Assembly (NCBI GenBank): GCA_002734065.2
Contig: NVXU02000054.1
Coordinates: forward strand, 1 to 64,000
DNA length: 64,000 nt
Direction: 5' to 3'
Source of the DNA: Fluviicola sp.
GTDB lineage: Bacteria > Bacteroidota > Bacteroidia > Flavobacteriales_D > Crocinitomicaceae
In this document: positions 8,223-58,937 of the stretch, piece by piece
Layout of the letters: each line of letters starts with the position of its first letter
Position numbering within the stretch: the stretch's first letter is position 1
Notes under the pieces: model-generated
What the model was told of the DNA's origin: nothing
Seen by the model: the letters and a program-made list of their open reading frames with translations, nothing else
Database searches by the model: none
Translations under genes and position numbers: made by a program

Positions 8223-8225
8223 TTC

Positions 8226-9383: not shown

Positions 9384-9433
9384 TTTTTAAATATAAACAA
9401 TTTAGTTGAGAGTATAAGACGGACAAAAACTAT

Positions 9434-10252: not shown

Positions 10253-10267
10253 TGTGCTTTAATTAAA

Positions 10268-10352
10268 TGTGGGCTTCGAGAGCCTCAGCCCACAGGTTAA
10301 TGAACGTAAGTTGAGGCTCTCAAATTGTGGGCTGAGGCTCTCGAAGCCCACA
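10268..10352. repeat. Inverted repeat with 27-bp perfect arms between prfA and pyrF
   Basis: Left arm 10268-10294 and right arm 10326-10352 are exact reverse complements (core GGCTTCGAGAGCCTCAGCCC) around a 31-bp loop. The loop itself repeats TGAGGCTCTC. The right arm ends 2 bp from the prfA stop codon. It may form a terminator or mRNA-stabilising hairpin. A degenerate CTATTCGAGAGCCTCAATGC stretch near 24045 looks related. Confidence 0.8.
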
Positions 10353-10353
10353 A

Positions 10354-11436: not shown

Positions 11437-11463
11437 TTCTTTTAATTTTTGGAGAATATTGGT

Positions 11464-12627: not shown

Positions 12628-12774
12628 AATGATTTGTAAGGTGCAAAATTAAGAATTCTAACAGCAAGAAGGGGCGAGAAAGAGAAAAGTTTTGAACGGG
12701 TTTTGCACCTCGAAATACGTCAAAAATTGGGTAATTTCGAATTCTAAATAGCTGTCAAATTGGCAGATTTTTAT

Positions 12775-12814
12775 CGATTTTTCGCAAAATTCAATTGAAT
12801 TTTGCGAAAAATCG
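12775..12814. repeat. 40-bp perfect palindrome, AT-rich, no loop
   Basis: The arms CGATTTTTCGCAAAATTCAA and its exact complement meet at CAATTG without a loop. It sits in the 293-bp gene-free stretch between the divergently read purM start and the small lipoprotein gene's end (12628-12920). Nothing else is recognisable in that stretch. It could be a terminator for the lipoprotein gene or a protein-binding palindrome. Confidence 0.8.
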
Positions 12815-12920
12815 GAGTTTTTGAGGAATAATTAGGGGATTTACGTTTAAGTGATGGAAGGTAATTTATGCTATAACTTAGGAGTAATTATTCACTTAAC
12901 TTACGCCAGGGAGAATTAAT

Positions 12921-13331
12921 TTATAGCTTATTTAGAATTCGGTCTTTGAATGTTCTTTTGTAAAAGTCGTTCTCTTTTTTTTCGAAATCATGATTTATTA
13001 ATTTCCAGTTTCCAATTGTATCACCCAAATTAATTTTAACTAGAGAAAATACAACTTTGTTTTTCCCATTTTCTCTAGTTAGGGTGTATACTATTTTTTT
13101 TTCTTCGGGGTAATAGAAATAAACTCTATGACAATGATTTAATAGGGTGTCTTCTAACCCAATCCAATTAGGAACAGTAAATTTTGGGTTGCTAATTTTA
13201 AATATATTTATTTTTTTTATAAGTTCACCTTCTGAAATATCTAGTTCATATTTTTCAGCATAAGGATAGCTCCCGGGATCAAGGTTGCATCCAAATAAGA
13301 GTAATAAAAGAAAGATTACACCTTTATTCAT
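12921..13331 (-). CDS. Small putative lipoprotein, 136 aa
   Basis: I do not recognise a family. The N-terminus is a short lipoprotein signal, MNKGVIFLLLLLFGC, with the lipobox cysteine at residue 15, so the protein is probably lipid-anchored in the periplasm or outer membrane. The remaining ~120 residues are charged, predicted mainly beta, and contain WIGLEDTLLNHCHRVYFYYPEEKK. There is no operon partner. Base composition is AT-rich compared with the flanking housekeeping genes, and spacers on both sides are filled with repeats, so it may be a recent acquisition. Confidence 0.6.
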   Translation of the reverse strand: MNKGVIFLLLLLFGCNLDPGSYPYAEKYELDISEGELIKKINIFKISNPKFTVPNWIGLEDTLLNHCHRVYFYYPEEKKIVYTLTRENGKNKVVFSLVKINLGDTIGNWKLINHDFEKKENDFYKRTFKDRILNKL

Positions 13332-13419
13332 GTTAGAAAGAAAACTACTGGTTTCTGCGAATATACTTGTTTTTCAGAAAACAATATTTGATTGCCAATA
13401 AGGAGTTATCTATAAAAAC

Positions 13420-13447
13420 AAAAAAAGCCTTATCAACTGATAAGGCT
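13420..13447 (-). terminator. Rho-independent terminator of the tRNA
   Basis: GCCTTATCA and its exact complement TGATAAGGC are separated by a 2-nt loop. Read on the minus strand the hairpin is followed by a run of seven T, directly downstream of the tRNA. It also faces the lipoprotein gene start. Confidence 0.75.
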
Positions 13448-13451
13448 TCTG

Positions 13452-13525
13452 TGGTCCCACCAGGACTCGAACCTGGGACCACCTGATTATGAGTCAGGTG
13501 CTCTAACCAACTGAGCTATAGGACC
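13452..13525 (-). tRNA. tRNA with CAT anticodon (elongator Met or Ile2)
   Basis: The RNA reads GGTCCTA...TGGGACC in the acceptor stem. The D-arm is TAGCTCAGTTGGTTAGAGC, the anticodon arm is CCTGA-CTCATAA-TCAGG with anticodon CAT, and the T-arm contains GGTTCGAGTCC. CCA is not encoded (ACAG follows). The absence of the GGG/CCC anticodon-stem pairs argues against initiator tRNA. Elongator Met and lysidine-modified Ile cannot be separated reliably by eye. Confidence 0.92.
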
Positions 13526-13584
13526 AATACTTTTTCAAGTATTTATTTTAATATCATTACTTAAAATTCTTTTACGTTTAAAAG

Positions 13585-13641
13585 AACCTGGGACCATCCC
13601 CGATGTTATCGGGATGCCCTAACCAACTGAGCTATAGGGTT
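13585..13641 (-). pseudogene. Truncated tRNA-like relic
   Basis: This segment repeats the D-arm of the neighbouring tRNA exactly (CTATAGCTCAGTTGGTTAG) and part of its variable/T region (GGTCCCAGGTTC). Its anticodon arm is replaced by the hairpin CCCGATAACATCGGG, and the T-loop and 3' acceptor strand are missing. It cannot fold as a full tRNA. It looks like a partial duplication whose anticodon arm was overwritten by a common Bacteroidota repeat hairpin. Confidence 0.65.
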
Positions 13642-14048
13642 GTGATTCTTCTTGCGAAAAATCAAGTGCGCCTGTCTGCCGACATAAGGCAGGCAAATAT
13701 ACTACAAGGCAAACAATTAGTCAATAAGAAATAACGATTTATTTTCATTCGACTAATAAACAAGAACGAACAATCTTTGTTAAATGTTAGCGACAACTTA
13801 GTTTTTTGTAAATTAACAGGGCTGATATTCCGAAGCGAGGTCCTGCGCATTGATTTTAGAATGACTGAAATAGAAATCAATGTTTTTAGTGAGAAGTTTA
13901 GCGACTATGGAGCTCAAGCGCATTCACTTAACATTGATGAAAATTGAAGGAGTGAGAAAATTGCAGCGCTAGACTTTTTTGCGAACTTTTTGGGGCAATG
14001 CCAAAAAGTGGAAACAATAAGAAATCGAGTAAAAAACAAATTTTATTT
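13642..14048. other. Gene-free stretch with short repeats
   Basis: No convincing gene is seen here. The stretch contains a GCCTG...CAGGC hairpin (about 13671-13694), a CCGAAGCGAGGTCCTGCGCA element near 13831 related to one near 18727, and AT-rich sequence. A hairpin near its end is listed separately. Confidence 0.5.
13985..14009 (-). terminator. Hairpin downstream of TauE/SafE gene
   Basis: Arms ACTTTTTGG and CCAAAAAGT (exact complements) surround a 7-nt loop 40 bp past the stop of the TauE/SafE gene. On the minus strand more AT-rich sequence follows. It also resembles a repeat hairpin seen in many Flavobacteriales, so the terminator role is tentative. Confidence 0.45.
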
Positions 14049-14828
14049 TCACAATTTCCACAAAAGACCTGCGGCAACAAGTAGCAACAAAATACTGAAA
14101 GCCTTTTTTAACCAAAGTGTTGACACTTTCTTTTGGAAAACATTGCCCAAGAAAACACCGAGAACGGTTACGCCAGTAATTGATAAAAGCAAGCTCCAAT
14201 TGATGCCTATTTCTAAAATTTCGGGATTGAAAAAATCGCCAATGAGCGCGATGCTCGACTGAATTGCAATGATAAACATGGAAGTTGCCACCGCTTTTTT
14301 CATATCCAAGCCCATTCCGAGGAGAATAGGAACGATAATAAAGCCACCGCCTGCACCGATAAATCCGCTTAAAAGTCCTGTTAGAATTCCAAAAACAACA
14401 ATGGTGGACGAAGACACTTTATCAGGTCTCGGTGGTTTGTTGTAGAATAATGTGCGGAGTCCGATGTAGGTCATTACGGCAATTAAAAGAATGGTAATAA
14501 TACTTGCGCGAGATGTTGTCGCACCAAACAATGTAAATTCTACAGGAATCAATGGGATTATCCAAAGCCTTACTGCAACTGCCGTCAACATACTAGGCAA
14601 AACAAAAACGACTGCTTTTTGGAAGTCAACTTCTTTTGATTTTATCCGCTGAATGGATCCAAAAGATGCGGATACCGCCACCACAAATAATGAGTAGGTT
14701 GTGGCAATGAGCATTGATTCTCCAAAAACATGATGCACTAAAGGCACCGTCAGAATGGAACCTCCACCACCAACTAAACCTAGAACGATGCCGATTGCCA
14801 AAGAAATAATAAGACCTACAATATACAT
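14049..14828 (-). CDS. TauE/SafE-family sulfite/anion exporter-like membrane protein
   Basis: This 259-aa integral membrane protein has about eight helices arranged as two inverted halves. Each half starts with a glycine-rich motif: GLVGGGGSILTVPLV near residue 20 and GLLSGFIGAGGGFIIVPILL near residue 155, the hallmark of the TauE/SafE (TSUP) family. Members export sulfite, sulfoacetate or other sulfur-containing or organic anions, and the substrate here is unknown. It lies 40 bp downstream of heme A synthase on the same strand and may be cotranscribed with it. Confidence 0.9.
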   Translation of the reverse strand: MYIVGLIISLAIGIVLGLVGGGGSILTVPLVHHVFGESMLIATTYSLFVVAVSASFGSIQRIKSKEVDFQKAVVFVLPSMLTAVAVRLWIIPLIPVEFTLFGATTSRASIITILLIAVMTYIGLRTLFYNKPPRPDKVSSSTIVVFGILTGLLSGFIGAGGGFIIVPILLGMGLDMKKAVATSMFIIAIQSSIALIGDFFNPEILEIGINWSLLLSITGVTVLGVFLGNVFQKKVSTLWLKKAFSILLLLVAAGLLWKL

Positions 14829-29530: not shown

Positions 29531-32377
29531 ATGAATACTTTTTCTAAACGACACATTGGTCCAAATGCATCAGAGAAATCTGCAATGCTGAAAACAATTG
29601 GAGTGAATTCAATTGATGAATTGATTGACAAAACAATCCCAGCACATATTCGATTGAATAAGAACCTCGATGTTAGTCCTGGACTTTCTGAACAAGAATA
29701 TTTAGAGCATATCGCAGAATTGGCGGCAAAAAACAGTGTGTACAAGTCATTTATTGGCTTAGGTTATAACGAAACAATCGTTCCTTCTGTTATTCTCCGT
29801 AATGTTTTGGAGAATCCGGGATGGTACACCGCATATACTCCCTACCAAGCAGAAATTTCGCAAGGAAGGTTAGAAGCGCTGTTGAATTTTCAGACGATGG
29901 TTTTGGACTTAACAGGAATGGAGTTGACAAATGCATCCTTGCTCGATGAAGGAACTGCAGCTTCCGAAGCAATGATTATGTTCTACAATTCTCGCTCGAG
30001 AAAAGACGTAAAAGCAGGGAAAAATAAGTTCTTTATTGCAGAGGATTGTTTTCCACAAACCATAGATGTCGTAGAAGGAAAAGCAAACAACTTAGGCATA
30101 GATTTAATTATTGGCAATCCTGCGAGCTTCGAACCTACGGAAGAATTCTTCGGTACAATTATTCAATATCCAAATCAGTTTGGTTCTATTGATGGTGTGG
30201 AAGAGTTCGTTGCGAAAATGAATGCAGCGGAAGTGAGTGTTGCCGTTGGAGCAGATATTCTGTCGTTGGTATTACTTAAATCGCCTGGTTCTTTCGGTGC
30301 AGATGTCGTTTTTGGTTCTACGCAACGTTTTGGTGTTCCAATGGGAGCAGGTGGGCCGCATGCAGCTTACTTTGCAACGAAAGAATCCTATAAAAGACAT
30401 ATTCCAGGTAGAATTATCGGTGTTTCTAAAGATACAGATGAGAATGTTGCTTTAAGAATGGCATTGCAAACAAGAGAACAACATATTAAAAGAGCGAGAG
30501 CAACATCAAATATTTGCACGGCGCAAGCTTTGTTGGCTGTCATGGCAAGTATGTATGTTGTGTATCACGGACCTGATGGGATGAAAACAATTGCCAATCA
30601 TGTTCATTCTTTGGCGAGCAAAACGGCAAATAAATTGAAAGCTGCTGGTATTTCGGTCAATGAGAATCAGTTCTTTGATACCATCCATATTACAGGGGTC
30701 GATGCAAAAGCAATCAAAGAGAGTGCTGAACATGCAGAAATGAACTTTAGAATAATCAATGACTCTGAATTGACGGTTAGTTTTGGAGAACCTCACACCC
30801 TTGCAGATGTCGCATTGGTCGTGGCAATAATTACTGGAGAAGAAATAACAGTTGAAGATGAGGTAGAATCAATGCTCTCAAATTCTTCATTAAGAACAGA
30901 TGCCATTTTTACGCATCCTACATTTAATAGTTTTCATTCTGAATCTAAAATGATGCGCTATTTGAAGCGTTTGGAGAATAAAGATTTATCGCTCGTTCAC
31001 AGTATGATTCCTTTAGGATCTTGTACCATGAAATTAAATGCAGCGTCAGAATTAATGGCAATTACCAATCCTCAGTTTGCAAATATGCATCCTTTTGCGC
31101 CGCTTGACCAAGCAGAAGGCTACCATGAAATGTTCAGAGGTTTGGAGGCTGATTTATGCGCTTGTACAGGATTTGCTGCGATGTCTTTGCAACCTAATTC
31201 TGGTGCACAAGGAGAATACACAGGTCTGATGGTTATTAAGGCATATCATGAATCGAATGGTGATTTTAATCGAAAAGTAATTCTCATACCATCTTCTGCA
31301 CACGGTACCAATCCTGCATCTGCGGTGATGGCAGGTTTTGACATTGTCGTAACAGATTGCGATGAACAAGGAAATATTGACATCAATGAACTGCGAGGAA
31401 AAGCGGTAGAATTGAAAGATACATTAGCCGGACTGATGGTGACTTATCCATCTACTCACGGAGTTTACGAAGAAGGGATTAAAGAAATCACAGACATCAT
31501 TCATGAGAATGGCGGGCAAGTTTATATGGACGGTGCCAACATGAATGCGCAAGTTGGATTAACTAATCCAGGAAATATTGGAGCAGATGTTTGCCACCTA
31601 AACTTACACAAGACATTTGCCATTCCTCACGGAGGGGGCGGACCAGGAATGGGACCAATCGGTGTTGCAAAACACTTAGCGCCTTTCTTACCAGGTTCTC
31701 GTTTGGTAAAATCGGGTGGAGAAAAAGCAATTAATGCTGTTTCTTCTGCGCCTTACGGTTCTGCATTGATTCTGCTAATTTCTTACGGATACATTAAAAT
31801 GCTGGGGGCAGAAGGATTAAGAGAATCAACAGAAATGGCAATCATGAATGCGAATTACATTGCTGCTTCTTTGAAAAATGATTACGACATCCTCTATTCT
31901 GGGAAAAACGGAACCGTTGCTCACGAAATGATTTTAGACTGCCGTGACTTTAAGAAAACAGCAGGCGTTGAGGTGGCAGACATTGCAAAACGACTAATTG
32001 ATTACGGTTTTCATGCGCCAACAGTTTCTTTTCCTGTTGCTGGAACGCTGATGGTTGAACCAACAGAAAGCGAGGACAAAGGGGAAATTGATAGGTTTAT
32101 TGAGGCAATGATTTCAATAAGAAAAGAAATCAAGGCAATTGTGGATGGCAATGCTGATCAAGAGAATAACTTATTGAAGAACGCACCCCATACCGCAAAT
32201 TGCATCATCAATCAAGAATGGAATTATCCATATTCTGCAAAAGAAGCGGCTTATCCAGTATCTTATTTGCAAGATTGGAAATATTGGGTACCTGTTAGAA
32301 GAATTGATGACGCTTACGGTGATAGAAATTTAATTTGTTCTTGCCCGAGTGTAGAAAGTTATATGGTGGAGGCTTAA
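29531..32377 (+). CDS. gcvP: Glycine dehydrogenase (decarboxylating), P-protein
   Basis: This 948-aa PLP enzyme of the glycine cleavage system decarboxylates glycine and passes the aminomethyl group to lipoyl-GcvH. It is the long, fused form, with an N-terminal half beginning RHIGPNASEKSAML and a C-terminal half with the PLP-lysine site (HLNLHKTFAIPHGGGGPGMGP). Blocks such as PLGSCTMKLNAASEL and PNSGAQGEYTGL are intact. gcvT and gcvH are elsewhere. It has its own -7 box and a hairpin follows the stop, so it is probably monocistronic. Confidence 0.97.
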   Translation: MNTFSKRHIGPNASEKSAMLKTIGVNSIDELIDKTIPAHIRLNKNLDVSPGLSEQEYLEHIAELAAKNSVYKSFIGLGYNETIVPSVILRNVLENPGWYTAYTPYQAEISQGRLEALLNFQTMVLDLTGMELTNASLLDEGTAASEAMIMFYNSRSRKDVKAGKNKFFIAEDCFPQTIDVVEGKANNLGIDLIIGNPASFEPTEEFFGTIIQYPNQFGSIDGVEEFVAKMNAAEVSVAVGADILSLVLLKSPGSFGADVVFGSTQRFGVPMGAGGPHAAYFATKESYKRHIPGRIIGVSKDTDENVALRMALQTREQHIKRARATSNICTAQALLAVMASMYVVYHGPDGMKTIANHVHSLASKTANKLKAAGISVNENQFFDTIHITGVDAKAIKESAEHAEMNFRIINDSELTVSFGEPHTLADVALVVAIITGEEITVEDEVESMLSNSSLRTDAIFTHPTFNSFHSESKMMRYLKRLENKDLSLVHSMIPLGSCTMKLNAASELMAITNPQFANMHPFAPLDQAEGYHEMFRGLEADLCACTGFAAMSLQPNSGAQGEYTGLMVIKAYHESNGDFNRKVILIPSSAHGTNPASAVMAGFDIVVTDCDEQGNIDINELRGKAVELKDTLAGLMVTYPSTHGVYEEGIKEITDIIHENGGQVYMDGANMNAQVGLTNPGNIGADVCHLNLHKTFAIPHGGGGPGMGPIGVAKHLAPFLPGSRLVKSGGEKAINAVSSAPYGSALILLISYGYIKMLGAEGLRESTEMAIMNANYIAASLKNDYDILYSGKNGTVAHEMILDCRDFKKTAGVEVADIAKRLIDYGFHAPTVSFPVAGTLMVEPTESEDKGEIDRFIEAMISIRKEIKAIVDGNADQENNLLKNAPHTANCIINQEWNYPYSAKEAAYPVSYLQDWKYWVPVRRIDDAYGDRNLICSCPSVESYMVEA

Positions 32378-32992: not shown

Positions 32993-35900
32993 CTATTGCT
33001 TCACTATTCTATACGTTCTATCAGTCACTTGATTTGATAATCGTAGGATGTAAATTCCATCTTCCAAATTCTCAACGTTAACTTCAACATCTGACGAGCC
33101 AATAAGAACATCTGATTCAGCGTATAAAACTTTACCTTTTAAGTCGTACAAAGTAACATTGAATTGATTCTCACTGATGAGATTTCTAATGAAAATTGAT
33201 GATGCCGTAGGGTTTGGATAAATTTCAATGTAGTCAGCATCAACTTCTAGTAAACCAAGATAATCACAAGCAGGGGATACGTCAATCACGATGTTTGCTG
33301 TATCATCCGGGCATGAAGTACTGGTAGTAATATATGTATAGTTATAAAAACCAGAAAGGTTACTTGTTGTGATAAACGAGCCTCCAACAGCCACATCAAA
33401 TTGATCGTACCAATCTCCTCCTAAATTAGCACCTGTCGTCAAGCTGTTATTCAAATCAATTGGCTCATTTTTACATGCAGAAAGAGAATTATCACCTCCA
33501 GCGTAAGATTGTCCTGAAAGAGAGTCAAGACTCAGAGAGAATGTTCCACTTGAGAAAGTACTTGCAGCATCGTGCATAATGTAATAAGTATTGCCAGTTA
33601 CCAATCCGCAGACAATAAACTTAGGAGCTAAGGAACTACCATCAGTTGCATCATCATTTGCACCTATTAATGTGTAGGTGTTAAAATCTGTACAATCCCC
33701 CACTTCATAAACCGCTACTTGACCATTGAATCCTTGGTCCGTCCCTGATATTTCCACCATTCCTGTATTCGGAGCAACAAAGGTAAACCAAGTTGAGAAG
33801 GATATAATTGTATCACACCAACCTGTTGTAGTCATGCACCCTGTTGCTGGTGGCGAAATGATATCTTCTCCAACAGCTACGGTCGCTGTTGAACCATCTA
33901 TTGTATAAATACTTCCATCGACTAATAATGGGTCAGCAAAACAAGGTTCATCATTTGTCAAAGGAGTCAAGACAGTAATTGGACCTACCCAGCCAGATGT
34001 ATCTGAACCACAAACGGCTTGTACATAGATGTCATAGATCGTAGCAGAACCTAAAGTTGCATCGAATGTTGTATCAGTGAAGTTATTATCTGCATTCACG
34101 ACAGCTCCCGAACCTATTGGGAAGCCAGATAAGCCGTACTGAACATTAAATCCAGTTGAAGGATAGGTTCCAACACCACTGCTCTCTGTCCAGTTCCATG
34201 CTGTAAACAGTGAGTCTATCGCCGTTAAACCTCCCAAACCTGTTACATCAGAACAGTTGGGCAAGGTTGTATATGTTCCCATAAATCCTTCACTTTGAAT
34301 AATTCCCGGATTACAATCCGCATAGATATAGATATCATAGGTTGTTAGTTGAGATAACCCTGGAATAATTATAGCAGTAACTGTAGTTGTGACCGTTGTC
34401 CCTGAAGTAAGAGGGTCAAAACCCGTTGGTCCATAGATTACTGTCCAGTTGGTTTCCCCAGAAATACCCGCTGTCCATGACAAGCCAAATTCATCAGTTG
34501 TTGCATACGTCAATGATAGATTCTTCGGTGAAGGACAATCTGTGTAAAAGAAACGAACACAAGAATTATTCTCTAAATAAGTAGGATCATTTGTAGAAAC
34601 GGTGTAATCTTGGTTAGGACCAGATATACCAATATCAGCATTATTTCCATAATCATCGCTAACATTATTATTCCCAAATACAACATCGTCATAGACATAG
34701 AAAATTTCTCCTGTCGCTTCGTGAATTTGAATTTGAAAAGTTATATCAGAGGTATTGTTACAGCAGTTTGAATACGTATCCCATTGAGCGATGAAGACCT
34801 GATTGGGAGCAGTACCGGTAACTTCAGTATAAGCCGCCCCATCACCAGGGAATAAATCATCCCCCCAGGGTAACATTGTCCCATTTGCTAGTGTGTTCAA
34901 ATTACCTCCGAAACCTACATTTCCTGTCGATGTTCCAAGGATAGCCCCGCCGTTATCTCCAATGGTAATAGAATTCATTAATAATCCTTGAAACAAAACG
35001 GGAAAAGGTAAAGGTGTAATTCCAGCTTCTGAATCATCGGTTAGCAACATATCTGTACCTGTTCCAGAGATGTCAATAAACCCAGCTGTTGGACAAGCTG
35101 TATTCCAATCCATGTAAGTTGGTTGATCATAGGTGTTAAAGCTAACTGCGCCAGTATAAAATGACGTGTCTCCAGGTGTGCAAATTGCTCTTACGTAAAC
35201 GTCATAGAATTGATTTGATGTCAATCCAGTGATAGTTGATGGATTCGTCGCTGTTAAAACCGATGTTCCTGTTCCTGGTGTAAACCCAACAGGACCGTAT
35301 TCTAGCGCCCATTCACTTTCTCCACCACCATTCGTCCAAGAGAATGTTCCCGAAGTTAAGTCTGATGCTGTAACGATAAAATTACTTGGTTGCGGGCAAG
35401 TTGGAGCCTCGAATATTGAAACATCATCAATAGAAATATCACCAGCAAAAGTTCCTGCGCTAACTGCTCTAAATCGAATTTGAATTACACCCGTATAGCC
35501 AGGTAAGGTTATATCTCTCATCAACCAAGGGTCTGCTTGAGTGCCTTGTTGTTGACCTGTAATCACGTCAACAGTATTCCAAACCGTTCCGTCCCATGCC
35601 TCCACGTTCAGTGTTCCAATTTGAGCACCAGTCATGTGGTAGTAGAAGCGTATCATAGGAAGTGTTAAGGCTGTAACATCAATATTAGGACTTGTTAAAG
35701 TTGCTTCGTCCCCTGTTGTGCCACTTGACGCTTCTGTGTAAAAATAATTAGTTCCACTATTCGCAACATTCGGACCTGTACCTCCCGACGGAGTTGTTCC
35801 TGTACCAGTAATATTCCAGTCATAAGCTGTAGTTGATGTTGCATCCCAACAAAGTGAGCTTGTTAAATTAACATTGGCAAGATGAGCTTCAACATCATCT

Positions 35901-37642
35901 GTCCATGGTGAGGTGGAAGTTGCACAAGCTGTAGTAAAAGAAAACGGACCGGCCCAAAAGCTGACACCATCGATAGCACCACAGTTAGTCATTACATAAA
36001 ATTCATAGGTTGTAATAGGTGTTAATCCTGTCGCTGTGGTAGTTAATCCAACAACTCCTGTTGCAGAACCAACTTCAGTACCTGTTCCAGGCGTAAAGCC
36101 AGGAACACCCCATTCTACCGAGTAATCCACTGCGTTTCCAATTGCATCCCAATTTAAGTTAGCAGAAACATCCGTAATAGATGTAACACTTAAGTTTGTT
36201 GGCTGTTGACAAGTAGGAGTTTCGAAAATAGAAATATCATCAATAGAAATATCACCAGCAATAGTTCCAGCGCTTACTGCTCTAAATCGTACTTGAATCA
36301 CTCCTGTATAACCTGGTAATGAAACATCTCTCATCAACCAAGGGTCTGCTTGAGCGGCTTGTTGTTGACCTGTAATCACGTCAACAGTATTCCAAACCGT
36401 TCCGTCCCATGCCTCCACGTTCAATGTTCCAATTTGAGCACCCGTCATGTGATAATAAAAACGAATCATTGGAACAGCCAAAGCGGTAACGTCAATGTTT
36501 GGACTTGTTAATGTAGCTTCATCTCCAATCACACCACTCGATGCTTCTATATAAAAATAATTAGTTCCACTATTCGCAACATTTGGACCTGTTCCACCTG
36601 AAGGGGTTGTTCCTGTTCCTGTAATGTTCCAGTCATAAAAAGAAGTAGACGTAGCATCCCAACACATGGAGTTCGTGAGGTTTACATTTGCAGGATGTGC
36701 TTCCACATCATCTATCCAAGGAGCAGTGAAAGTTGCGCATGCTGTTAAGAAAGAAAAAGGACCAGCCCAATTACTTGTGCCGTCTGTAGCTCCACAGTCT
36801 GTCATAACGTAAAACTCGTAGGTAGTTATAGGTGTTAATCCAGTTGCAGGAGTTGTTAAACCCGCAATATTTGTAGCCGTTCCAGTTTGAGCGCCTGTAC
36901 CAGGAGCAAACCCGGGAGTGCCCCATTCTACTGTGTAATCAACAGCATTTGCAACAGCATTCCAGTTAAGATCAACGCTTGTTGCAAGAATATTTGTTGC
37001 TCCAAGATTGGTGGGTTGCGGACAGGTAACATTATAAACATTAATATCATCAAACCCAAAACCGTCATAACTAGTTACAGAACCGTCAGAACCGAAAGCG
37101 ATTCGTAAAATGACACTTGCTTGACCTCCTAAGCCTGTTAAAAACTGCGTTGCAGAAATCCAACCACCAGAACCAGGCCCTCCTGTCCAACCTATTTGTT
37201 GACCTCCAGGGTTACCATTAATTGTTCCATCGTTGAACCAATTCGGGTCTCCTAATGCTCCTATATTTTGCCAAGATATACCTCCATCAATTGAGGATTG
37301 AATAACGGTACCATCCCAACTGTTTTCTGAATTGTACCAAAAAGAAAACGTTAGTGATGGGTTTGCAACTAAAGTAAAATCAAAAATTGGACTCTCTACA
37401 GAACCTGTTTCATTATTGTTGTAGTTTCCTGCTAAGTTTGTTACCCAAGCATTCGTTCCAGAAGCGGCGCTGTTAATAACAGTCCCCGTAGGCGCGCCTA
37501 ACGCCCATGTTCCTCCGGCAATAGCTGTCCAGCCTCCGGCCCCTGCTTCAAAATCTTCAAGATAGGGATATACCGTGATTTGAGAATTCGCTGAGAACAA
37601 CATCAATATGCTTGCTCCTAAACTTAGTAGTAATTTTTTCAT
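32993..37642 (-). CDS. Giant secreted MAM/fibronectin III protein with T9SS type A sorting domain
   Basis: This protein of about 1549 aa starts at the ATG at 37642 (MKKLLLSLGASILMLFSANSQ, signal peptide); the 90 codons of open frame upstream are not expected to be translated. A MAM/concanavalin-like domain (FSFWYNSENSWDGTVIQSS) is followed by alternating fibronectin III-like modules (YEFYVMTDCGA) and MAM-like modules (WIDDVEAHPANVNLTNSMCWD). Further modules include one with TPLPFPVLFQGLLMNSITIGDNG and a late bacterial Ig/pre-peptidase-like region. The end (EIYPNPTASSIFIRN ... YDLKGKVLY ... GIYILRL) is the type A (Por secretion tail) sorting domain. Two modules are near-identical tandem copies. 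It is likely a surface adhesin or secreted binding protein. Confidence 0.92.
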   Translation of the reverse strand: MKKLLLSLGASILMLFSANSQITVYPYLEDFEAGAGGWTAIAGGTWALGAPTGTVINSAASGTNAWVTNLAGNYNNNETGSVESPIFDFTLVANPSLTFSFWYNSENSWDGTVIQSSIDGGISWQNIGALGDPNWFNDGTINGNPGGQQIGWTGGPGSGGWISATQFLTGLGGQASVILRIAFGSDGSVTSYDGFGFDDINVYNVTCPQPTNLGATNILATSVDLNWNAVANAVDYTVEWGTPGFAPGTGAQTGTATNIAGLTTPATGLTPITTYEFYVMTDCGATDGTSNWAGPFSFLTACATFTAPWIDDVEAHPANVNLTNSMCWDATSTSFYDWNITGTGTTPSGGTGPNVANSGTNYFYIEASSGVIGDEATLTSPNIDVTALAVPMIRFYYHMTGAQIGTLNVEAWDGTVWNTVDVITGQQQAAQADPWLMRDVSLPGYTGVIQVRFRAVSAGTIAGDISIDDISIFETPTCQQPTNLSVTSITDVSANLNWDAIGNAVDYSVEWGVPGFTPGTGTEVGSATGVVGLTTTATGLTPITTYEFYVMTNCGAIDGVSFWAGPFSFTTACATSTSPWTDDVEAHLANVNLTSSLCWDATSTTAYDWNITGTGTTPSGGTGPNVANSGTNYFYTEASSGTTGDEATLTSPNIDVTALTLPMIRFYYHMTGAQIGTLNVEAWDGTVWNTVDVITGQQQGTQADPWLMRDITLPGYTGVIQIRFRAVSAGTFAGDISIDDVSIFEAPTCPQPSNFIVTASDLTSGTFSWTNGGGESEWALEYGPVGFTPGTGTSVLTATNPSTITGLTSNQFYDVYVRAICTPGDTSFYTGAVSFNTYDQPTYMDWNTACPTAGFIDISGTGTDMLLTDDSEAGITPLPFPVLFQGLLMNSITIGDNGGAILGTSTGNVGFGGNLNTLANGTMLPWGDDLFPGDGAAYTEVTGTAPNQVFIAQWDTYSNCCNNTSDITFQIQIHEATGEIFYVYDDVVFGNNNVSDDYGNNADIGISGPNQDYTVSTNDPTYLENNSCVRFFYTDCPSPKNLSLTYATTDEFGLSWTAGISGETNWTVIYGPTGFDPLTSGTTVTTTVTAIIIPGLSQLTTYDIYIYADCNPGIIQSEGFMGTYTTLPNCSDVTGLGGLTAIDSLFTAWNWTESSGVGTYPSTGFNVQYGLSGFPIGSGAVVNADNNFTDTTFDATLGSATIYDIYVQAVCGSDTSGWVGPITVLTPLTNDEPCFADPLLVDGSIYTIDGSTATVAVGEDIISPPATGCMTTTGWCDTIISFSTWFTFVAPNTGMVEISGTDQGFNGQVAVYEVGDCTDFNTYTLIGANDDATDGSSLAPKFIVCGLVTGNTYYIMHDAASTFSSGTFSLSLDSLSGQSYAGGDNSLSACKNEPIDLNNSLTTGANLGGDWYDQFDVAVGGSFITTSNLSGFYNYTYITTSTSCPDDTANIVIDVSPACDYLGLLEVDADYIEIYPNPTASSIFIRNLISENQFNVTLYDLKGKVLYAESDVLIGSSDVEVNVENLEDGIYILRLSNQVTDRTYRIVKQ
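35400..36740 (-). repeat. Tandem ~813-bp intragenic MAM-FN3 repeat
   Basis: Two successive modules of the giant T9SS gene repeat with an offset of about 813 bp (271 codons). Stretches such as the run from ATCACGTCAACAGTATTCCA at about 35562 and 36375 are identical for tens of bases. It is an internal duplication prone to unequal recombination. Confidence 0.8.
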
Positions 37643-52036: not shown

Positions 52037-52852
52037 ATGGGACCAATAGGTATTTTTGATTCAGGCTATGGAGGATTGACTATCCTCAATGATATTCGCA
52101 AGAAATTGCCTGAATACGACTACCTATACCTTGGTGACAACGCGCGAGCTCCTTATGGCACTCGTTCTTTTGAGGTGGTTTATGAGTTTACCTTGCAAGC
52201 TGTTAATGAATTATTCAACCGAGGATGTGAATTGGTCATTGTTGCATGTAATACAGCCTCTGCGAAAGCATTGCGAACAATTCAACAGGAAGATTTAGTA
52301 AAGATTGATGCTCAAAAACGAGTGCTCGGCGTTATTCGCCCCAGTTCAGAAATTATTGGTCAATACACGCAAAGCAACCACATCGGAATTCTAGCAACAC
52401 AAGGCACGGTAGATTCGGAGTCCTACCTCATAGAAATCAATAAATTCTCTCCGCAATGTGACGTTTACCAGCAAGCTTGCCCAATGTGGGTGCCATTGAT
52501 TGAGAACAATGAACAGGACACAAAAGCAGGTCGTGAATTCATCAAAAAAGATATTGAAGCCTTGTTGGCAATGAACAAAAGAATAGACACCATTTTATTG
52601 GGATGTACACATTACCCTGTGATAAAGGAATACATTGAGTCTGTTGTTCCCGAGAATGTTGAAATAATTGCTCAGGGAAACATTGTGGCAAACAGTTTAG
52701 CAGATTATCTTTTGAGGCATCCGCTGATGAATTCTCAATGCACAAAAAATGGGACGGTTCACTTTCTCACCACAGAGAATGCAGAAGAATTTAATAAAAA
52801 CGCGTCTAATTATTTTGGAGAAAAGGTGTACTCTGAGCACATTCGATTTTAA
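52037..52852 (+). CDS. murI: Glutamate racemase
   Basis: This 271-aa cofactor-independent racemase supplies D-glutamate for peptidoglycan. The start GPIGIFDSGYGGLTIL, the first catalytic cysteine in IVACNTASAKALR and the second in LLGCTHYPVI are present, along with LGDNARAPYG. The last ~100 bp are duplicated at 58274-58375, beyond the adjacent island. The two copies are identical over 59 bp and then diverge, so this gene's 3' end may have been exchanged when the island formed. The coding frame itself is intact. Confidence 0.96.
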   Translation: MGPIGIFDSGYGGLTILNDIRKKLPEYDYLYLGDNARAPYGTRSFEVVYEFTLQAVNELFNRGCELVIVACNTASAKALRTIQQEDLVKIDAQKRVLGVIRPSSEIIGQYTQSNHIGILATQGTVDSESYLIEINKFSPQCDVYQQACPMWVPLIENNEQDTKAGREFIKKDIEALLAMNKRIDTILLGCTHYPVIKEYIESVVPENVEIIAQGNIVANSLADYLLRHPLMNSQCTKNGTVHFLTTENAEEFNKNASNYFGEKVYSEHIRF

Positions 52853-52859
52853 TTTTACC

Positions 52860-52886
52860 TCACTCCTCACTCCTCACTCCTCACTT
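52860..52886. repeat. Tandem CACTCCT repeats after murI
   Basis: About three and a half direct copies of a 7-10 bp CACTCCTCACT-type unit lie immediately after murI, at the boundary of the island. Related units occur at 3246-3320. Confidence 0.6.
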
Positions 52887-53592
52887 CCTTCACTGCTCTA
52901 TTCTCGCAGCGATCGCAGATGTCAGTGATGTTTTTCAGTTCTCTTGCTTCAGCAACGGTTCCTTGAAATATTCCGGTTGTTCTCTTGCCATTAATGTATC
53001 CGCAATCACTAAAAAGGTGATAACTTTTTCCCGATTTGGTCCAGAAAACTTGATTAACTCCCACTAAATTTTCTACTTGGGCTGTTTGTTCAGTGTATTG
53101 TTCAACAGATGGAGGATTAAAATCTGTTCCAACCAATCCTGCAATGACCAAAGCAACTGCGGCAATAGATCCCGCAATTCCTTTTTGCTTGCCTGTCATA
53201 TTCTTGTTGGTAAAAATAAGGATGATCAAGGGTAAGAATGCAATCACAGCGATAATCATTCCCAGTTGATTTTGCACAAAGAATTTAAACTTATTTTTCT
53301 CCGAAGCAGGATCTAAACGGTTGGCTTTTTTCCAAATAATAGAGCCTGTAACTGCAAAAATTAGAATGGCAACAATCATTACAATCAACCAAGTCATGTT
53401 AACGGGGTCTTCTCTTAGAAGAAAAATTGCTCCGACTTCTAAACCAATTGCAATCACGAATGCAATGACAGCGAAAATTCTCATTTGATTCGATTTTGAT
53501 TGAGCAGATTCCGTTGGTTGCCAAGGTTGGTTAGAAGAGGTGTTCGCACTTTCTCCCGTGCTTACTTTTGTTATTTTTTTTGAAGTTGCCAT
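52867..53592 (-). CDS. Membrane protein with C-terminal zinc-ribbon-like domain
   Basis: This 241-aa protein starts with a polar Ser/Gln-rich tail, followed by four TM helices (about residues 38-60, 67-90, 112-130 and 139-158). A soluble C-terminal domain with VFWTKSGKSYHLFSDCGYING and ITDICDRCE follows. The HxxxxDC...CDxC spacing resembles the small Ada-type/zinc-ribbon-like tail seen in several uncharacterised membrane proteins, so it may bind Zn. The function is unknown. It lies between the murI 3' end and the partial carbonic-anhydrase copy. A fragment homologous to its MTWLIVM region is fused to that copy. Confidence 0.7.
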   Translation of the reverse strand: MATSKKITKVSTGESANTSSNQPWQPTESAQSKSNQMRIFAVIAFVIAIGLEVGAIFLLREDPVNMTWLIVMIVAILIFAVTGSIIWKKANRLDPASEKNKFKFFVQNQLGMIIAVIAFLPLIILIFTNKNMTGKQKGIAGSIAAVALVIAGLVGTDFNPPSVEQYTEQTAQVENLVGVNQVFWTKSGKSYHLFSDCGYINGKRTTGIFQGTVAEARELKNITDICDRCENRAVKEVRSEE

Positions 53593-53691
53593 GATGTTTT
53601 TCTTTTGGAATTGCTAAAATAACGGATTTAACTCGGTTATTCTGCTGAAATTCTCGAAAATAATGCACAAAGCAATGTTAATCAGAATGAT

Positions 53692-53988
53692 TTAACTTTC
53701 TTCCTCCTTAAACCAACCTGCATAGGTCACATAATTGTCTGCGATTCTTTGTACTTCTCCGTTAAAGAGCTCTGGAGAAAGCGTTTTTACTTTCTTTGCG
53801 GGCACTCCTGCATAAACACTCCAAGACTCAACTCTTGTTCCTTGTAACAAAACTGCGCCAGCTGCAATGATGCAATTGGATTCGATATAGCAATCATCCA
53901 TCACAATTAACCAAGTCATGTTCACGAGGTCATCTTTTAGTATGGACATCAAACCGAACAGCATTCTTGTTTTATTTTTTAGATGCAT
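53692..53988 (-). pseudogene. Chimeric pseudogene: membrane-protein fragment fused to carbonic-anhydrase tail
   Basis: The 98-codon frame has two origins. From 53702 to 53906 it is about 98% identical to the 3' part of the full gamma-carbonic-anhydrase gene at 58423-58627 (only about three substitutions). Beyond about 53900, DNA and protein instead match the neighbouring membrane-protein gene (VNMTWLIVM, compare bases 53380-53420). The join lies at shared ACAATyAACCAAGTCATG-like sequence, suggesting microhomology-mediated recombination. The product would lack the carbonic-anhydrase N-terminal half and is unlikely to be functional, although the frame is open. Confidence 0.75.
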
Positions 53989-54050
53989 AAGGTACTATTT
54001 TTAACTAAATAATACCTACCTTTATTAGCTAATTCGTTTAGGAACAGCTT

Positions 54051-56219
54051 ATGAAGCCATCTTTATTACTAATTTATTCTTTATTTTCTTTATTTTCTTT
54101 ATTGAGTTATGGTCAGCAGTTTGATGATTATAAGCCATTAAAGGCGAAAGGTTCATTACCAGTGGATATTACCCAAAGAACTTTTTTAAAGGTTCAATCT
54201 GGTTATGATAAAACGATTGAAGAACAAGATTCAAAACAGACGAAGAAAGTAAAATCAAAGTTTATACTTCAATCAAATTACGCGTTGGATGAATTATTAA
54301 CAAGTGGCATTGTTTTGTTTGGAGACACTATCACTAACTATATTAATAAAATCGCCTCGAAACTATTAAATAACAATCAAAAGCTCAGAGATGAACTAAG
54401 ATTTTACTCTATTAAAACAGATGTAACAAATGCATTTTCCACAGACCAAGGAATGATTTTTGTCACTTTGGGATTAATTAGTCAACTAGAGAATGAAGAT
54501 CAACTTGCATTCGTTCTTGCTCACGAAATAGTACACTACATCAAGAAACATTCTATTACAAAGGCAATTATTTCTGATGAGGTGTTCAGAGGTAAAAATG
54601 AATATTACAAGAACAATAGTACGGATAACAATATAAAGATACTAAGCACTTTCTCTAAGCAATATGAATTAGAAGCAGACTCTCTAGCCATTAATTTAAT
54701 AGCTAATTCAGGTTATAATTTAAAGAAGGCTAAAGGAATATTTACCGTGTTAGAGTACTCATATTTACCTTTCGAAGAAGAATCGGTCAATTTTTCATTT
54801 TTAGAGTCAGATGGTTTTGAAATAGATAAATATTATGTATTAGACTCTATTAGTCCCATTATTTTTAAAGAAACTAAAGATGACAAATATGGCTCTCATC
54901 CCAATATTGATAGGAGAAGAGAGCAGTTTGATAGAATAACATCATCACTTTCGGTTTTGGAAGTTAAATACAATCAAAAACCATTTCAATATATCAAAAA
55001 GATAAGCCGCTTTGAAATTGTTCGGATTAATTTAGATGAATTCGATTATTCAAGAGCATTGTATAATTCTCATATTCTATTGAAAAACGATCCGAATAGT
55101 TTTTATCTAAGAAAAAGTGTTGCTCAAGCATTGTACGGGATCTCAAAATTTAATCTAATTAAGAAAGGAAGGTTACTTAATAGACGTTCAAAAGAAGATT
55201 CAGAAGGCGAAATTAGTGCAATGCATTATTTTATTGAAAAATTAGACACAAAGACTTCCTCTTCTTTATTTATAAGATATACATGGGAATTAAACACTCA
55301 ACATACAGATTCAATTTTACTTAGGTTATTGGAGGACGTCATTTTAGAATTAAAAAAAGATTACCACATTAGCTTCTCAAACTATTTAAGTAAACCAGTT
55401 TCAATTGCTGACTCTAGTGTCTTGAGAAAATCAAAAACTCAAAAAATTAAAGACGCTCAACAGTCTGGTTCTGATAGTTCTCCAAATTATAGAACTTTTT
55501 TAATTGGAGTCAATGAGAGAGATGAGCTAAAAAAAACCTTCAATAAAGTAAAGTATTATTCTAAAACGGAGGGTATTGTTGTTGAGGAGGGTTTAGGAAA
55601 GCACGAAATTGCTATTTCAGAACCAATAGGGAGTGTTTTGTTTGTAGATCCCAAGTATTATTTCATTGATAAAAGGAAGGGGTTAAAATTGATTAATTCA
55701 GAAAAAAAGAAGTACATTTTCTACAAACAAATAGAAGACAACTCATCGAGAGCGGAGCTAAAAACAGATATTCTTTCTTTCAAAGAAATGACATCTGGAG
55801 ATGTTAATTCATACAATAAATTAAACGACTTTAATAGTTGGATTAAAGATAATTTTATTTGTCACTCCATTAAAGAAAAGTGGAAGTTTATAACACCTAG
55901 GTCGAATGATGTAATCAATGAACTTAAAGAGTATAACACAAATTATTTAGCTTATTCTGGTGTTTTTGTTTATAATGAAAACAGACCGTTTTTTAACGAG
56001 CCTTTATCATTCACAATTCTTTTCCCTTATACACTCCCTGTTGGAATAGCTGTAGCATTGACCCCTAAGCACTATACATACTATTATACAATTATTTATA
56101 ATGTTACAACGGGAGAAATAGTCTTAGACAAGATTTATGATGTTGGAATTAAAGCTAACTCAGCGACGGTTAATTCTTTTATGTATGATTTAATGAAGCA
56201 AATAGTAAAAAAGAAATGA
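54051..56219 (+). CDS. M48-family metalloprotease, 722 aa
   Basis: A signal peptide (MKPSLLLIYSLFSLFSLLSYGQ), encoded in part by three perfect 9-bp tandem units, precedes a zinc-protease domain. That domain has the HEIVH motif (residues 158-162, Zn ligands plus catalytic Glu) and the downstream Glu ligand in ELEADSLAIN (about 206-215), the M48/Oma1/HtpX-type arrangement. The remaining ~480 residues contain TPR-like helices and then a beta-rich domain of unknown family. It probably acts in the periplasm or at the cell surface. It heads a three-gene operon, overlapping the next start by 4 bp (ATGA). The region is AT-rich relative to murI. Confidence 0.82.
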   Translation: MKPSLLLIYSLFSLFSLLSYGQQFDDYKPLKAKGSLPVDITQRTFLKVQSGYDKTIEEQDSKQTKKVKSKFILQSNYALDELLTSGIVLFGDTITNYINKIASKLLNNNQKLRDELRFYSIKTDVTNAFSTDQGMIFVTLGLISQLENEDQLAFVLAHEIVHYIKKHSITKAIISDEVFRGKNEYYKNNSTDNNIKILSTFSKQYELEADSLAINLIANSGYNLKKAKGIFTVLEYSYLPFEEESVNFSFLESDGFEIDKYYVLDSISPIIFKETKDDKYGSHPNIDRRREQFDRITSSLSVLEVKYNQKPFQYIKKISRFEIVRINLDEFDYSRALYNSHILLKNDPNSFYLRKSVAQALYGISKFNLIKKGRLLNRRSKEDSEGEISAMHYFIEKLDTKTSSSLFIRYTWELNTQHTDSILLRLLEDVILELKKDYHISFSNYLSKPVSIADSSVLRKSKTQKIKDAQQSGSDSSPNYRTFLIGVNERDELKKTFNKVKYYSKTEGIVVEEGLGKHEIAISEPIGSVLFVDPKYYFIDKRKGLKLINSEKKKYIFYKQIEDNSSRAELKTDILSFKEMTSGDVNSYNKLNDFNSWIKDNFICHSIKEKWKFITPRSNDVINELKEYNTNYLAYSGVFVYNENRPFFNEPLSFTILFPYTLPVGIAVALTPKHYTYYYTIIYNVTTGEIVLDKIYDVGIKANSATVNSFMYDLMKQIVKKK

Positions 56220-57031
56220 GAGGATTATTGATTATCGTTTTCTTGTTAAAAGCATATACTCTTTTACATGCTCAAAATCCAGGATACCTAGGTAAAAAAA
56301 TCTCGATTGAAATAAATGGATTGTTTTCAATTTCTAATGCAAATAGAGCGTTTAATTCTGTTCGCTCCTCGACCGATGAGAGTAAAGCTAAAAGAATTTT
56401 AAAGGATAGAAAATACAGTTTTAGGACGGAAATTCATTTTGACTATTCAATAACAAGACGTCTATCGTTAGGTGTTTTTGGATCTGTGTCTCAACACAAA
56501 TTTACATATAATAACTTTTCTGTATTGATGGGTGAACAAGGTGATGGTGTTACGGGTAGGTATAAGACATTTATTTCAAATGAAGATATCTATATGATGA
56601 TGGTAAAAGAAGCTGGGCTATCATTAAGGGTTTATGGTAAAAAACACATTTCTCCCGTTGGATTTTACAATGAGTTTAGGATTGGTGTTATACAATCTGT
56701 TTTATCAAAATCTGTAGATGGTATTATGACCGAATCTAGTCTTTCAATTATTGTAAATGATTTAAGTTATGAGTATACAGTCCCTAACAGACCATTTAAC
56801 TTTCTTAAAATCGGATATTCTTTAGGTAGGAAAATAGTTTTTAAGCACGGATTTTATTTGAATTTATCTGCATCGTTAAATTTAGTATTGGGGAGATACA
56901 AATTTAAAGGTCGCGGGGAATTGGACAAAACTTCTTGGTATTACCATTACAACATGGGATATACAGAGCGAAAATTTTTATTTAAAGATAACTTTTTTCA
57001 GTATAAAGCTGGATTTGGTCTTATATTTTGA
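56216..57031 (+). CDS. Putative outer-membrane beta-barrel protein, 271 aa
   Basis: I do not recognise a specific family. A signal peptide (MRGLLIIVFLLKAYTLLHAQ) is followed by alternating amphipathic beta strands rich in Tyr/Phe, with turns of charged residues and a C-terminal strand ending FFQYKAGFGLIF. This is consistent with a small outer-membrane barrel whose terminal aromatic residue is recognised by BamA. It overlaps the M48 gene by ATGA and is followed by the lipoprotein gene within 4 bp, so the three are one translational unit. Confidence 0.65.
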   Translation: MRGLLIIVFLLKAYTLLHAQNPGYLGKKISIEINGLFSISNANRAFNSVRSSTDESKAKRILKDRKYSFRTEIHFDYSITRRLSLGVFGSVSQHKFTYNNFSVLMGEQGDGVTGRYKTFISNEDIYMMMVKEAGLSLRVYGKKHISPVGFYNEFRIGVIQSVLSKSVDGIMTESSLSIIVNDLSYEYTVPNRPFNFLKIGYSLGRKIVFKHGFYLNLSASLNLVLGRYKFKGRGELDKTSWYYHYNMGYTERKFLFKDNFFQYKAGFGLIF

Positions 57032-57034
57032 TTT

Positions 57035-58243
57035 ATGAAACACCTTTTTTTTTGTTTATTATTGGTCTTAATTGCTTCTTGTAAAAGAGAAGGATGTACG
57101 GATCCTAAAGCCGTTAATTACGATTACAAAGTTAAAATTGCAGATAATTCAAAATGTATTTACAAAGAGTATACTGCTGATAATAATACAGTTGTGATTG
57201 ATTTTGGTCAATATTCATGCTCCTCTTTTGCGGACTTTCATTTTAAAAAAATACCTGGAGCAACAGTAGATTATAGAATCAAGTGCTTTGTGCGATTTGG
57301 GGGCAAAATTATCATTGATCCTGGTGTAACGATAGAGTTTACAGAAGATGCCGGGATGAGGTTTGACAAGGTTGTGAGTATTAACGGTACTATCGACAGT
57401 GTGATAAACTTTATTCCTGTAAACTCGTATTGGAGAGGCTTAGAATTTTTCGGTTATTCTTTTCCAGATACCGTTAATGTCCACTACTTAAATGTTAAAA
57501 ATGCAGGCAATCCGCAAACGACAAGTGATCTTAGTTTCAAGTATTGGGGGATCACGTTTATTACTAATGGGAATTATAATATAACTAATATTCAAGTTGA
57601 TAATTGTATTAATGGAGGGGTGCTTTTTCATACAACTTCCTTTGATAATGATGTTTACAGTATCATATTTGATTCTGTAACTATCAGTAATTGTGAAGTC
57701 CCTTTGAAAATTAATCACTATGCGTTAGCTAACAAGTTTAATTCATTATCCTTGGGTAATAATACTTCTCCAGAAGTTATTCTGCCTTTAAGATCCATGG
57801 GTTTAGATTCTAATATTTTTTTTAGCAATTATGGAGTTCCATTTCACCTTACAACGCATGAATCTTCAAATAATTCAATAACTTTAAGTTCCGTCGACTT
57901 GAATATTAGCGCAGGATGTGACTTTGTAATGGGTCAAAATGCTGCAATCACTTGTAATAGCAGTTTCAATTGTATTGGTAATGTTACCGATTCTATAACA
58001 TTCATTGGAGAACAAAACACAAGTAATTTTTGGAAAGGGTTTATATTAAGCTTTCCCTCAATTGATTTTGTCAGGCAAGAAAATGTGACTAATTCTAACA
58101 ATAGTAATATGATTTTGGGTTCTGGTTTTATCACAAATTCCATTATTAAAAATGGTTCAACCAATTGTGGTATTTGGTCTACACAACCTATTAATGTCAC
58201 AGGAACTCAGGCAATTGGAGTGACAACTTTAATTTGTCCATAA
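57035..58243 (+). CDS. Lipoprotein with right-handed beta-helix-like repeats, 402 aa
   Basis: The signal MKHLFFCLLLVLIASC has a lipobox cysteine at residue 16. It is followed by GCTDPKAVNYDYKVKIADNSKCIY, a small Bacteroidota module of the form CTDP.A.NYD......D...C.Y. The rest is Asn/Thr/Ser-rich, with periodic short strands such as INGTIDSVINFIPVNSYWRGLEFFG and NNSNMILGSGFITNSIIKNG, typical of a parallel beta-helix. It is probably tethered to the outer membrane. It is the last gene of the island operon. Fifteen to thirty bp after its stop, the second murI tail copy begins. Confidence 0.72.
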   Translation: MKHLFFCLLLVLIASCKREGCTDPKAVNYDYKVKIADNSKCIYKEYTADNNTVVIDFGQYSCSSFADFHFKKIPGATVDYRIKCFVRFGGKIIIDPGVTIEFTEDAGMRFDKVVSINGTIDSVINFIPVNSYWRGLEFFGYSFPDTVNVHYLNVKNAGNPQTTSDLSFKYWGITFITNGNYNITNIQVDNCINGGVLFHTTSFDNDVYSIIFDSVTISNCEVPLKINHYALANKFNSLSLGNNTSPEVILPLRSMGLDSNIFFSNYGVPFHLTTHESSNNSITLSSVDLNISAGCDFVMGQNAAITCNSSFNCIGNVTDSITFIGEQNTSNFWKGFILSFPSIDFVRQENVTNSNNSNMILGSGFITNSIIKNGSTNCGIWSTQPINVTGTQAIGVTTLICP

Positions 58244-58273
58244 TTATAATTTTAGCAAGTGATAATTTGAAAT

Positions 58274-58375
58274 ACGGTTCACTTTCTCACCACAGAGAAT
58301 GCAGAAGAATTTAATAAAAACGCGTCTAATTACTTCGGTGAAAAGGTTCATTCTGAGCAAATTCGGCTAAGTTAG
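58274..58375 (+). pseudogene. Second copy of the murI 3' end
   Basis: The sequence repeats the last ~100 bp of murI. Bases 58274-58332 are identical to 52754-52812, after which the two differ at several positions yet both still encode a murI-like tail (NYFGEKVHSEQIRLS-stop here, NYFGEKVYSEHIRF-stop there). It has no upstream coding part, so it is a remnant. It marks the right border of the island. Confidence 0.85.
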
Positions 58376-58391
58376 ATGAGTCTAATAAAAT

Positions 58392-58411
58392 AAGTTAGAC
58401 AAATCTAACTT
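58392..58411 (-). terminator. Hairpin after carbonic anhydrase gene
   Basis: AAGTTAGA and TCTAACTT form an 8-bp perfect stem with a CAAA loop, 2 bp past the carbonic anhydrase stop. The following minus-strand sequence is T-rich but without a clean run. Confidence 0.55.
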
Positions 58412-58412
58412 T

Positions 58413-58937
58413 TTAATCCTCCTCCTCCTTAAACCAACCTGCATAGGTCACATAATTATCTGCGATTCTTTGTACTTCTCCGTTAAATAGCTCTGGAGAA
58501 AGCGTTTTTACTTTCTTTGCGGGCACTCCTGCATAAACACTCCAAGACTCAACTCTTGTTCCTTGTAACAAAACTGCGCCAGCTGCAATGATGCAATTGG
58601 ATTCGATGTAGCAATCATCCATCACAACTGACCCCATTCCAATAAGAACGTTGTCTTCTACTGTGCAGCCATGAACATTGGCGTTGTGACCGACAGAAAC
58701 ATTGTTGCCCAAAGTCGTTTTTGCCTTTTCGAAGGTTGCGTGAATCACAGCACCGTCTTGTATGTTGACTTTATTGCCAAAAACAATGGAATTAACATCT
58801 CCACGAACGACTGCGCTGAACCAAACGGAACACTGATCGCCCATTGTTACATCGCCAACGATGGTTGCGTTTTCTGCAAACCAGCAATCTTTTCCGTTAG
58901 AGGGGGAGAATCCTCTGCATTTTTTAATGAGTGCCAT
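58413..58937 (-). CDS. Gamma carbonic anhydrase family protein
   Basis: This 174-aa left-handed beta-helix protein has hexapeptide repeats (GDVTMGDQCSVWFSAVVRGD, IQDGAVIHATFEKAKTTLG, GHNANVHGCTVEDNVLIGMGS). The predicted metal-binding His residues occur in VIHAT and VGHNANVHG. Bacterial members of this group are called CamH/PaaY-like; some have carbonic anhydrase activity and others are of unknown function. A near-identical copy of its 3' third lies at 53702-53906 on the far side of the island. The native neighbour before the insertion was presumably murI (convergent). Confidence 0.92.
   Translation of the reverse strand: MALIKKCRGFSPSNGKDCWFAENATIVGDVTMGDQCSVWFSAVVRGDVNSIVFGNKVNIQDGAVIHATFEKAKTTLGNNVSVGHNANVHGCTVEDNVLIGMGSVVMDDCYIESNCIIAAGAVLLQGTRVESWSVYAGVPAKKVKTLSPELFNGEVQRIADNYVTYAGWFKEEED

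Follow-up and report, generated by a model that had tools for sequence, protein, structure and literature searches.

In Campbell-type single crossover and in homology-facilitated illegitimate recombination, chromosomal ends become duplicated on both sides of foreign DNA. Prophage e14 integrates at the 3' end of icd. In Streptococcus pneumoniae, transformation with partly repeated DNA leads to tandem duplications, producing merodiploidy without a transposase, according to the available text of one study (PMC3784515). Integrons have been reported in Bacteroidota, including a complete one in Salinibacter ruber, in the available parts of two further reports (PMC9024848, PMC8618304).

The locus described here lies in the window, that is, the whole stretch of 64,000 nucleotides that was analysed, which comes from a 3.49-Mb draft genome in 62 contigs (G000) of a genus of uncultured Flavobacteriales. 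Here a gene gain that shows no recognisable mobile element can be read from the sequence: displaced gene ends preserve its history at both boundaries, and the site is free of cargo in relatives. The layout is murI - memb - (CA tail) - cargo - (murI tail) - CA, where memb is a membrane-protein gene and CA a carbonic anhydrase gene, and the cargo is flanked on either side by ends of murI and CA. We propose that the island is probably an additive insertion at the variable murI/CA junction, made by homology on one side and microhomology on the other, with a foreign three-gene block at the joint. The features, in order along the window, are:

52037..52852, plus strand: murI, complete, glutamate racemase of 271 aa (open reading frame; Pfam Asp_Glu_race, 59.5 bits, cut-off 31)
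52754..52812, plus strand: 59 bp from the murI 3' end, found again at 58274-58332 (sequence repeat)
52867..53592, minus strand: memb, membrane protein of 241 aa, native neighbour (open reading frame; order in relatives)
53692..53988, minus strand: 98-aa open reading frame, a memb fragment plus a displaced CA 3' end (open reading frame, repeats)
53899..53940, minus strand: memb fragment, 86% over 42 nt to 53377-53418, with a TTGTrATG joint to the CA tail (repeats)
54051..56219, plus strand: cargo gene 1, M48-family metalloprotease of 722 aa (Pfam Peptidase_M48, 67.2 bits, cut-off 20.3)
56216..57031, plus strand: cargo gene 2, probable outer-membrane protein of 271 aa (open reading frame; named from its look, without a family match)
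57035..58243, plus strand: cargo gene 3, putative lipoprotein of 402 aa (open reading frame; named from its N-terminus)
58274..58375, plus strand: displaced murI 3' end, 59 bp identical and then a different end (sequence repeat)
58369..58412, no strand: inverted repeat with a T-run between the murI tail and CA (by eye)
58413..58937, minus strand: CA, complete, gamma-carbonic-anhydrase-like protein of 174 aa (open reading frame; Pfam Hexapep, 67 bits, cut-off 27)

Repeat search and alignment show that the two murI 3' ends are the same over exactly 59 bp without a difference, followed by 13 differences in 40 positions; an exact repeat of this length inside 6 kb would not be expected by chance. 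The displaced end finishes in RLS and the complete murI in RF. The CA tail at 53702-53906 differs from that at 58423-58627 at 3 of 205 bp (53737, 53767 and 53887, all synonymous), and 119 bp is the longest run without a mismatch. An earlier sequence-only reading had reported both repeats at these positions, with the CA tails about 98% identical, and both stand as it gave them. A third repeat, which that reading missed, is that of memb. Here the memb fragment and the left CA tail are joined in frame, thus forming the 98-aa frame; the motif TTGTrATG at the joint is common to both genes, as is AGAAGACnnCGTT slightly upstream (by eye). Because memb and CA share these two sequences, the joint looks like a product of microhomology joining. 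On the right side, the inverted repeat with its T-run is probably a terminator, and similar copies of it occur elsewhere among the genome's own matches.

Gene order was compared in a genus set of 34 genomes, one genome per species, with the best 8 candidates per genome in the junction search. murI and CA are directly adjacent and convergent in G043 and G046, which bears out the earlier suggestion that they are former convergent neighbours. The order murI-memb-CA occurs in G014 and G041, with a small open reading frame separating memb from CA; G024 has the order CA-memb, and G048 has murI-memb with CA on another contig. By CA sequence, the nearest genomes to the window are G014 (84.3% and 83.3% for the 5' and 3' parts) and G041 (83.3% and 80.7%). 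Since these two nearest genomes have murI-memb-CA, gene order marks memb as a native neighbour of murI and CA, not as cargo. The two parts of CA are about equally close to G014, and a foreign origin of the complete CA 3' part was rejected on this ground. The check for a site without cargo in relatives thus came out positive in both forms of the junction, in other species only.

The earlier reading had counted four genes in between. The three cargo genes stand, and memb drops out, being found between murI and CA in G014 and G041 as well; the gained DNA would therefore be three genes, for an M48 protease, a probable outer-membrane protein and a putative lipoprotein, together with the extra murI tail. 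The M48 protein has its best solved-structure match in 3c37 (8.8e-11); 34 of 40 genomes have M48 matches, in many cases confined to the M48 domain, and the top non-self match by score has 37% identity. The 271-aa cargo protein has no match in Pfam, NCBIfam, PHROGs or PADLOC, and none outside the island among the loci compared. For the 402-aa lipoprotein, as for memb, no Pfam family scores above its cut-off, and among the loci compared its only match elsewhere covers 39 residues at another locus of G000. The G+C content of the cargo genes (0.299, 0.310 and 0.327) lies below that of murI (0.403), memb (0.391) and CA (0.441); however, it is weak evidence of foreign origin, since the nearby ompH genes are likewise low (0.331 and 0.345). 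A phage origin was rejected: two phage records matched just the start of murI, and PHROGs gave the cargo one match, which links the M48 protein to a family without known function. A defence island was rejected as well, the sole match being that of the M48 protein to capP at 17.7 bits.

In the additive insertion that we propose, two junction versions, murI-memb-CA and murI-CA, would have come to lie next to each other, with the gene ends duplicated in tandem. Incoming or sister-chromosome DNA would recombine by homology on one side, in the murI tail or the CA tail, and the other side would be joined through the short memb/CA match. A Campbell-type single crossover, or an unequal transformation-type crossover, would leave such a layout, with murI and CA still complete and the displaced ends as relics. 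A crossover in the murI tail would predict an abrupt end of identity, and one in CA would predict near-identical CA tails; both are seen. A site-specific core is compatible with the abrupt end of the murI identity, too. At 86%, the memb fragment has diverged much more than the CA tail (98.5%), which calls for more than one step or for gene conversion afterwards. In this model the order of events, the route of DNA entry and the source of the cargo are inferred; the earlier proposal of a junction duplication with new DNA at its joint fits the anatomy.

That reading had also invoked exchange with a diverged relative, and this part is not supported: no donor is visible, and in both pairs each copy in the window resembles the other more than it does any relative compared. 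The murI ends are 76% identical to each other over 37 nt versus at most 65% to five relatives, and the CA tails 98.4% over 192 nt versus at most 83.3% to other genomes (17 full CA genes compared). For this reason, the recombination partner may have been of the same lineage, or the copies may have been homogenised later by conversion. Neither a donor nor a same-species empty site was found in the searched set, which holds one genome per species.

As in pneumococcal merodiploidy, duplicated segments border new DNA by way of homology and without a transposase; however, the available text of that study gives duplications of about 100-900 kb between long repeats, whereas the ends here measure about 100 and 220 bp, with microhomology at one of the joints (PMC3784515). 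Pneumococcal transformation may serve as a precedent for the island, not as proof. G000 encodes ComEC- and DprA-family proteins, which say little about competence because most control genomes have them too (ComEC family in 10 of 14, DprA family in 11 of 14). The island also resembles the outcome of homology-facilitated illegitimate recombination, in that there is homology on one side and little on the other, but unlike in that model or the Campbell-type one, no circular or linear donor is seen here.

Signs of a mobile element were looked for in the island. No transposase or integrase domain was found by Pfam in the 8 proteins scanned, and no integrase remnant was found in the island, the only match in the window being at 30077-30247 with E 0.34; the earlier observation that no transposase or integrase is visible therefore holds. 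No inverted repeats bound the island, the three weak inverted pairs (71-78%) included. No attC-like site was found in the window at a score of 12, a threshold that gives about 1.5 chance matches per 64 kb, and no attC 3'-half motif either; an integron array in the window was rejected, the site being absent by both scans. The genome's integron-type integrase copy is on another contig, C44, not at the island. The wider idea that integron arrays generally make up the murI-CA intervals of this genus was given up, as the longer intervals examined gave at most one match per locus in each scan. The island is like chromosomal integron cassette arrays in that accessory genes were gained at a fixed chromosomal place, but unlike them it has neither an attC-like site nor an integrase.

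The neighbourhood of CA is variable across the genus. CA neighbourhoods were read in 19 of the 31 genomes having a CA-tail match, and the genes following CA differ widely among them: murI in two, memb in one, a 128-aa open reading frame in three, besides recombinases, large proteins and others. A tyrosine recombinase follows CA in G042 (386 aa) and in G048 (383 aa), and a recombinase remnant does so in G017. In G040, a CA-tail array extends over 7699-14463 of locus L192 (G040:C163), where four displaced CA 3' ends follow CA (8958-9067, 11797-12040, 13543-13786 and 14373-14463), with accessory genes between them, two of whose encoded proteins have a Por secretion tail. In G047, which is 72% complete, the CA tail is truncated and frameshifted (L193 5932-6173, G047:C94), and no complete CA was found in this partial genome. 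By eye, a non-CA 5' flank, RACTACGYAA, stands in the same register in two G040 fragments and in that of G047.

The CA tail was found in 31 of the 34 genomes, three of which (G000, G040 and G047) have extra or truncated copies; this count omits a further weak match in six genomes, at 33-51% identity and E values from 8e-5 to 5e-4 in open frames of 177-250 aa, taken by us for other hexapeptide proteins. As controls, the kbl tail is single in all 34 genomes, and the murI tail, found in 33 of 34, is doubled in G000 only. Set against these controls, the G040 and G047 copies indicate that displaced CA tails are a recurring feature of the genus rather than an oddity of a single assembly, which suggests that one housekeeping gene end, that of CA, may be a repeated point of gene gain.

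Among the rival explanations, the one that survives best, though we consider it unlikely, is an integrative element with the murI 3' end as its attachment site. Here a 59-bp core would have been used, and a 5,520-bp unit would have given murI a new end, with the old one displaced to the right. The identical core followed by diverged ends, and the intact murI with an exchanged 3' end, are as expected from such an element; like e14 in icd, it would keep the gene whole by a substitute 3' end while the original end is displaced to the far side. The recombinase genes beside CA in G042 and G048, the remnant in G017 and the recurrence of displaced CA ends in G040 and G047 point the same way. However, the unit carries no recombinase gene or remnant, the second murI tail occurs in G000 only among the 33 of 34 genus genomes with a match, and the element would also have to carry a CA tail and a memb copy, requiring an extra step. 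Unlike e14-type elements, therefore, the window unit lacks a recombinase and has the tail of a second gene displaced as well.

A more far-reaching proposal, to which we give little credence, is that the CA 3' part is a recurrent docking site in the genus. Units beginning with a CA 3' end would restore the gene and push the old end downstream, thus building CA-tail arrays with cargo as in G040; the agent would be the Xer-like integron-type recombinase that lies beside CA in G042 and G048 and of which G017 keeps a remnant, and the window island would be a decayed relic. As in integron arrays, the displaced CA tails of G040 lie near a stretch with attC-like motifs. The ends of the G040 fragments, compared by eye, may correspond to attC halves, which is a lead in view of the weak likeness. 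We regard the locus as a clear and instructive but fairly ordinary example of genes being added at a variable junction; there is a modest chance that it is part of a less usual process that recurs around the end of the CA gene.

A chimeric assembly, in which the assembler joined two strain versions of the junction, is also improbable, and less likely than additive recombination. The genome is a 62-contig draft, just two versions of the junction are present, and exact repeats of 59 and 119 bp could mislead short-read assembly. However, the memb/CA joint has far too little common sequence for an overlap join, and the island lies inside a contig of 126,956 bp in a genome with an estimated contamination of 0.76%. 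No second copy was found in its own genome beyond matches of at most 62 bp among the best 40 of 90 candidates, and another assembly, that of G040, has displaced CA tails as well. Finally, an old tandem duplication in murI-memb-CA by a memb x CA microhomology crossover, with cargo added later and gene conversion keeping the CA tails and the 59 bp of murI alike, would give the observed order of memb fragment, CA tail and memb, and fits a memb fragment that drifted while the CA tails did not, but it seems doubtful, as alone it leaves unexplained a murI tail directly before the complete CA without memb between.

Relatives of the 381-aa recombinase on C44 of G000 occur in 21 of 34 genus genomes (E <= 1e-60), and both copies scanned contain PF13495 and PF00589. 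The best structure matches of the G000 protein are of the XerC/XerA type (4a8e, 8.3e-42; 5hxy, 3.4e-38); IntI4 (2a3v) is matched at 1.7e-29 in two pieces, IntI residues 190-242 being without a counterpart. The structure matches begin near residue 106, so that about 105 residues form an N-terminal extension. Of the 17 recombinase contigs examined, 13 have the C-terminal end of the recombinase gene at most 1.5 kb from a contig end, and attC-like intergenic sequences occur on the C-terminal side of the gene in G042, G046 and G040. Judged by sequence, the cassette arrays, which combine attC-like sites with an unusual Xer-like recombinase of about 380 aa, appear to be integron-like. The integron-like recombinase loci are:

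G000:C44:151-1293 (L214)
G042:C8 (L211) and G042:C7 (L218)
G046:C8 (L219)
G040:C131 (L215)
G048:C58 (L198)

On L192 of G040, two attC 3'-half motifs lie at 16.3 and 17.6 kb.

In a self-repeat scan of 141 sequences (2.2 Mb, with some overlap), 33 had direct repeats; the window and L192 were the ones studied closely, and the scan yields no background rate. In other genera, direct repeats lie at or just after murI (L125 10832-10911 and 16764-16847; L147 10832-13551; L186 8997-9062 and 14158-14223). In the window, a simple CTCACTCC repeat at 52859-52887 lies at the memb 3' end and stands in place of the memb C-terminus seen in G014 and G041, with matches of 26-32 bp at several other places in the genome; as a simple sequence that also occurs elsewhere in G000, it was rejected as an att site. 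Further to the left, the window holds an adjacent 786-bp direct repeat (35369-36154 and 36182-36967) of 79% identity, which is perhaps a duplicated gene.
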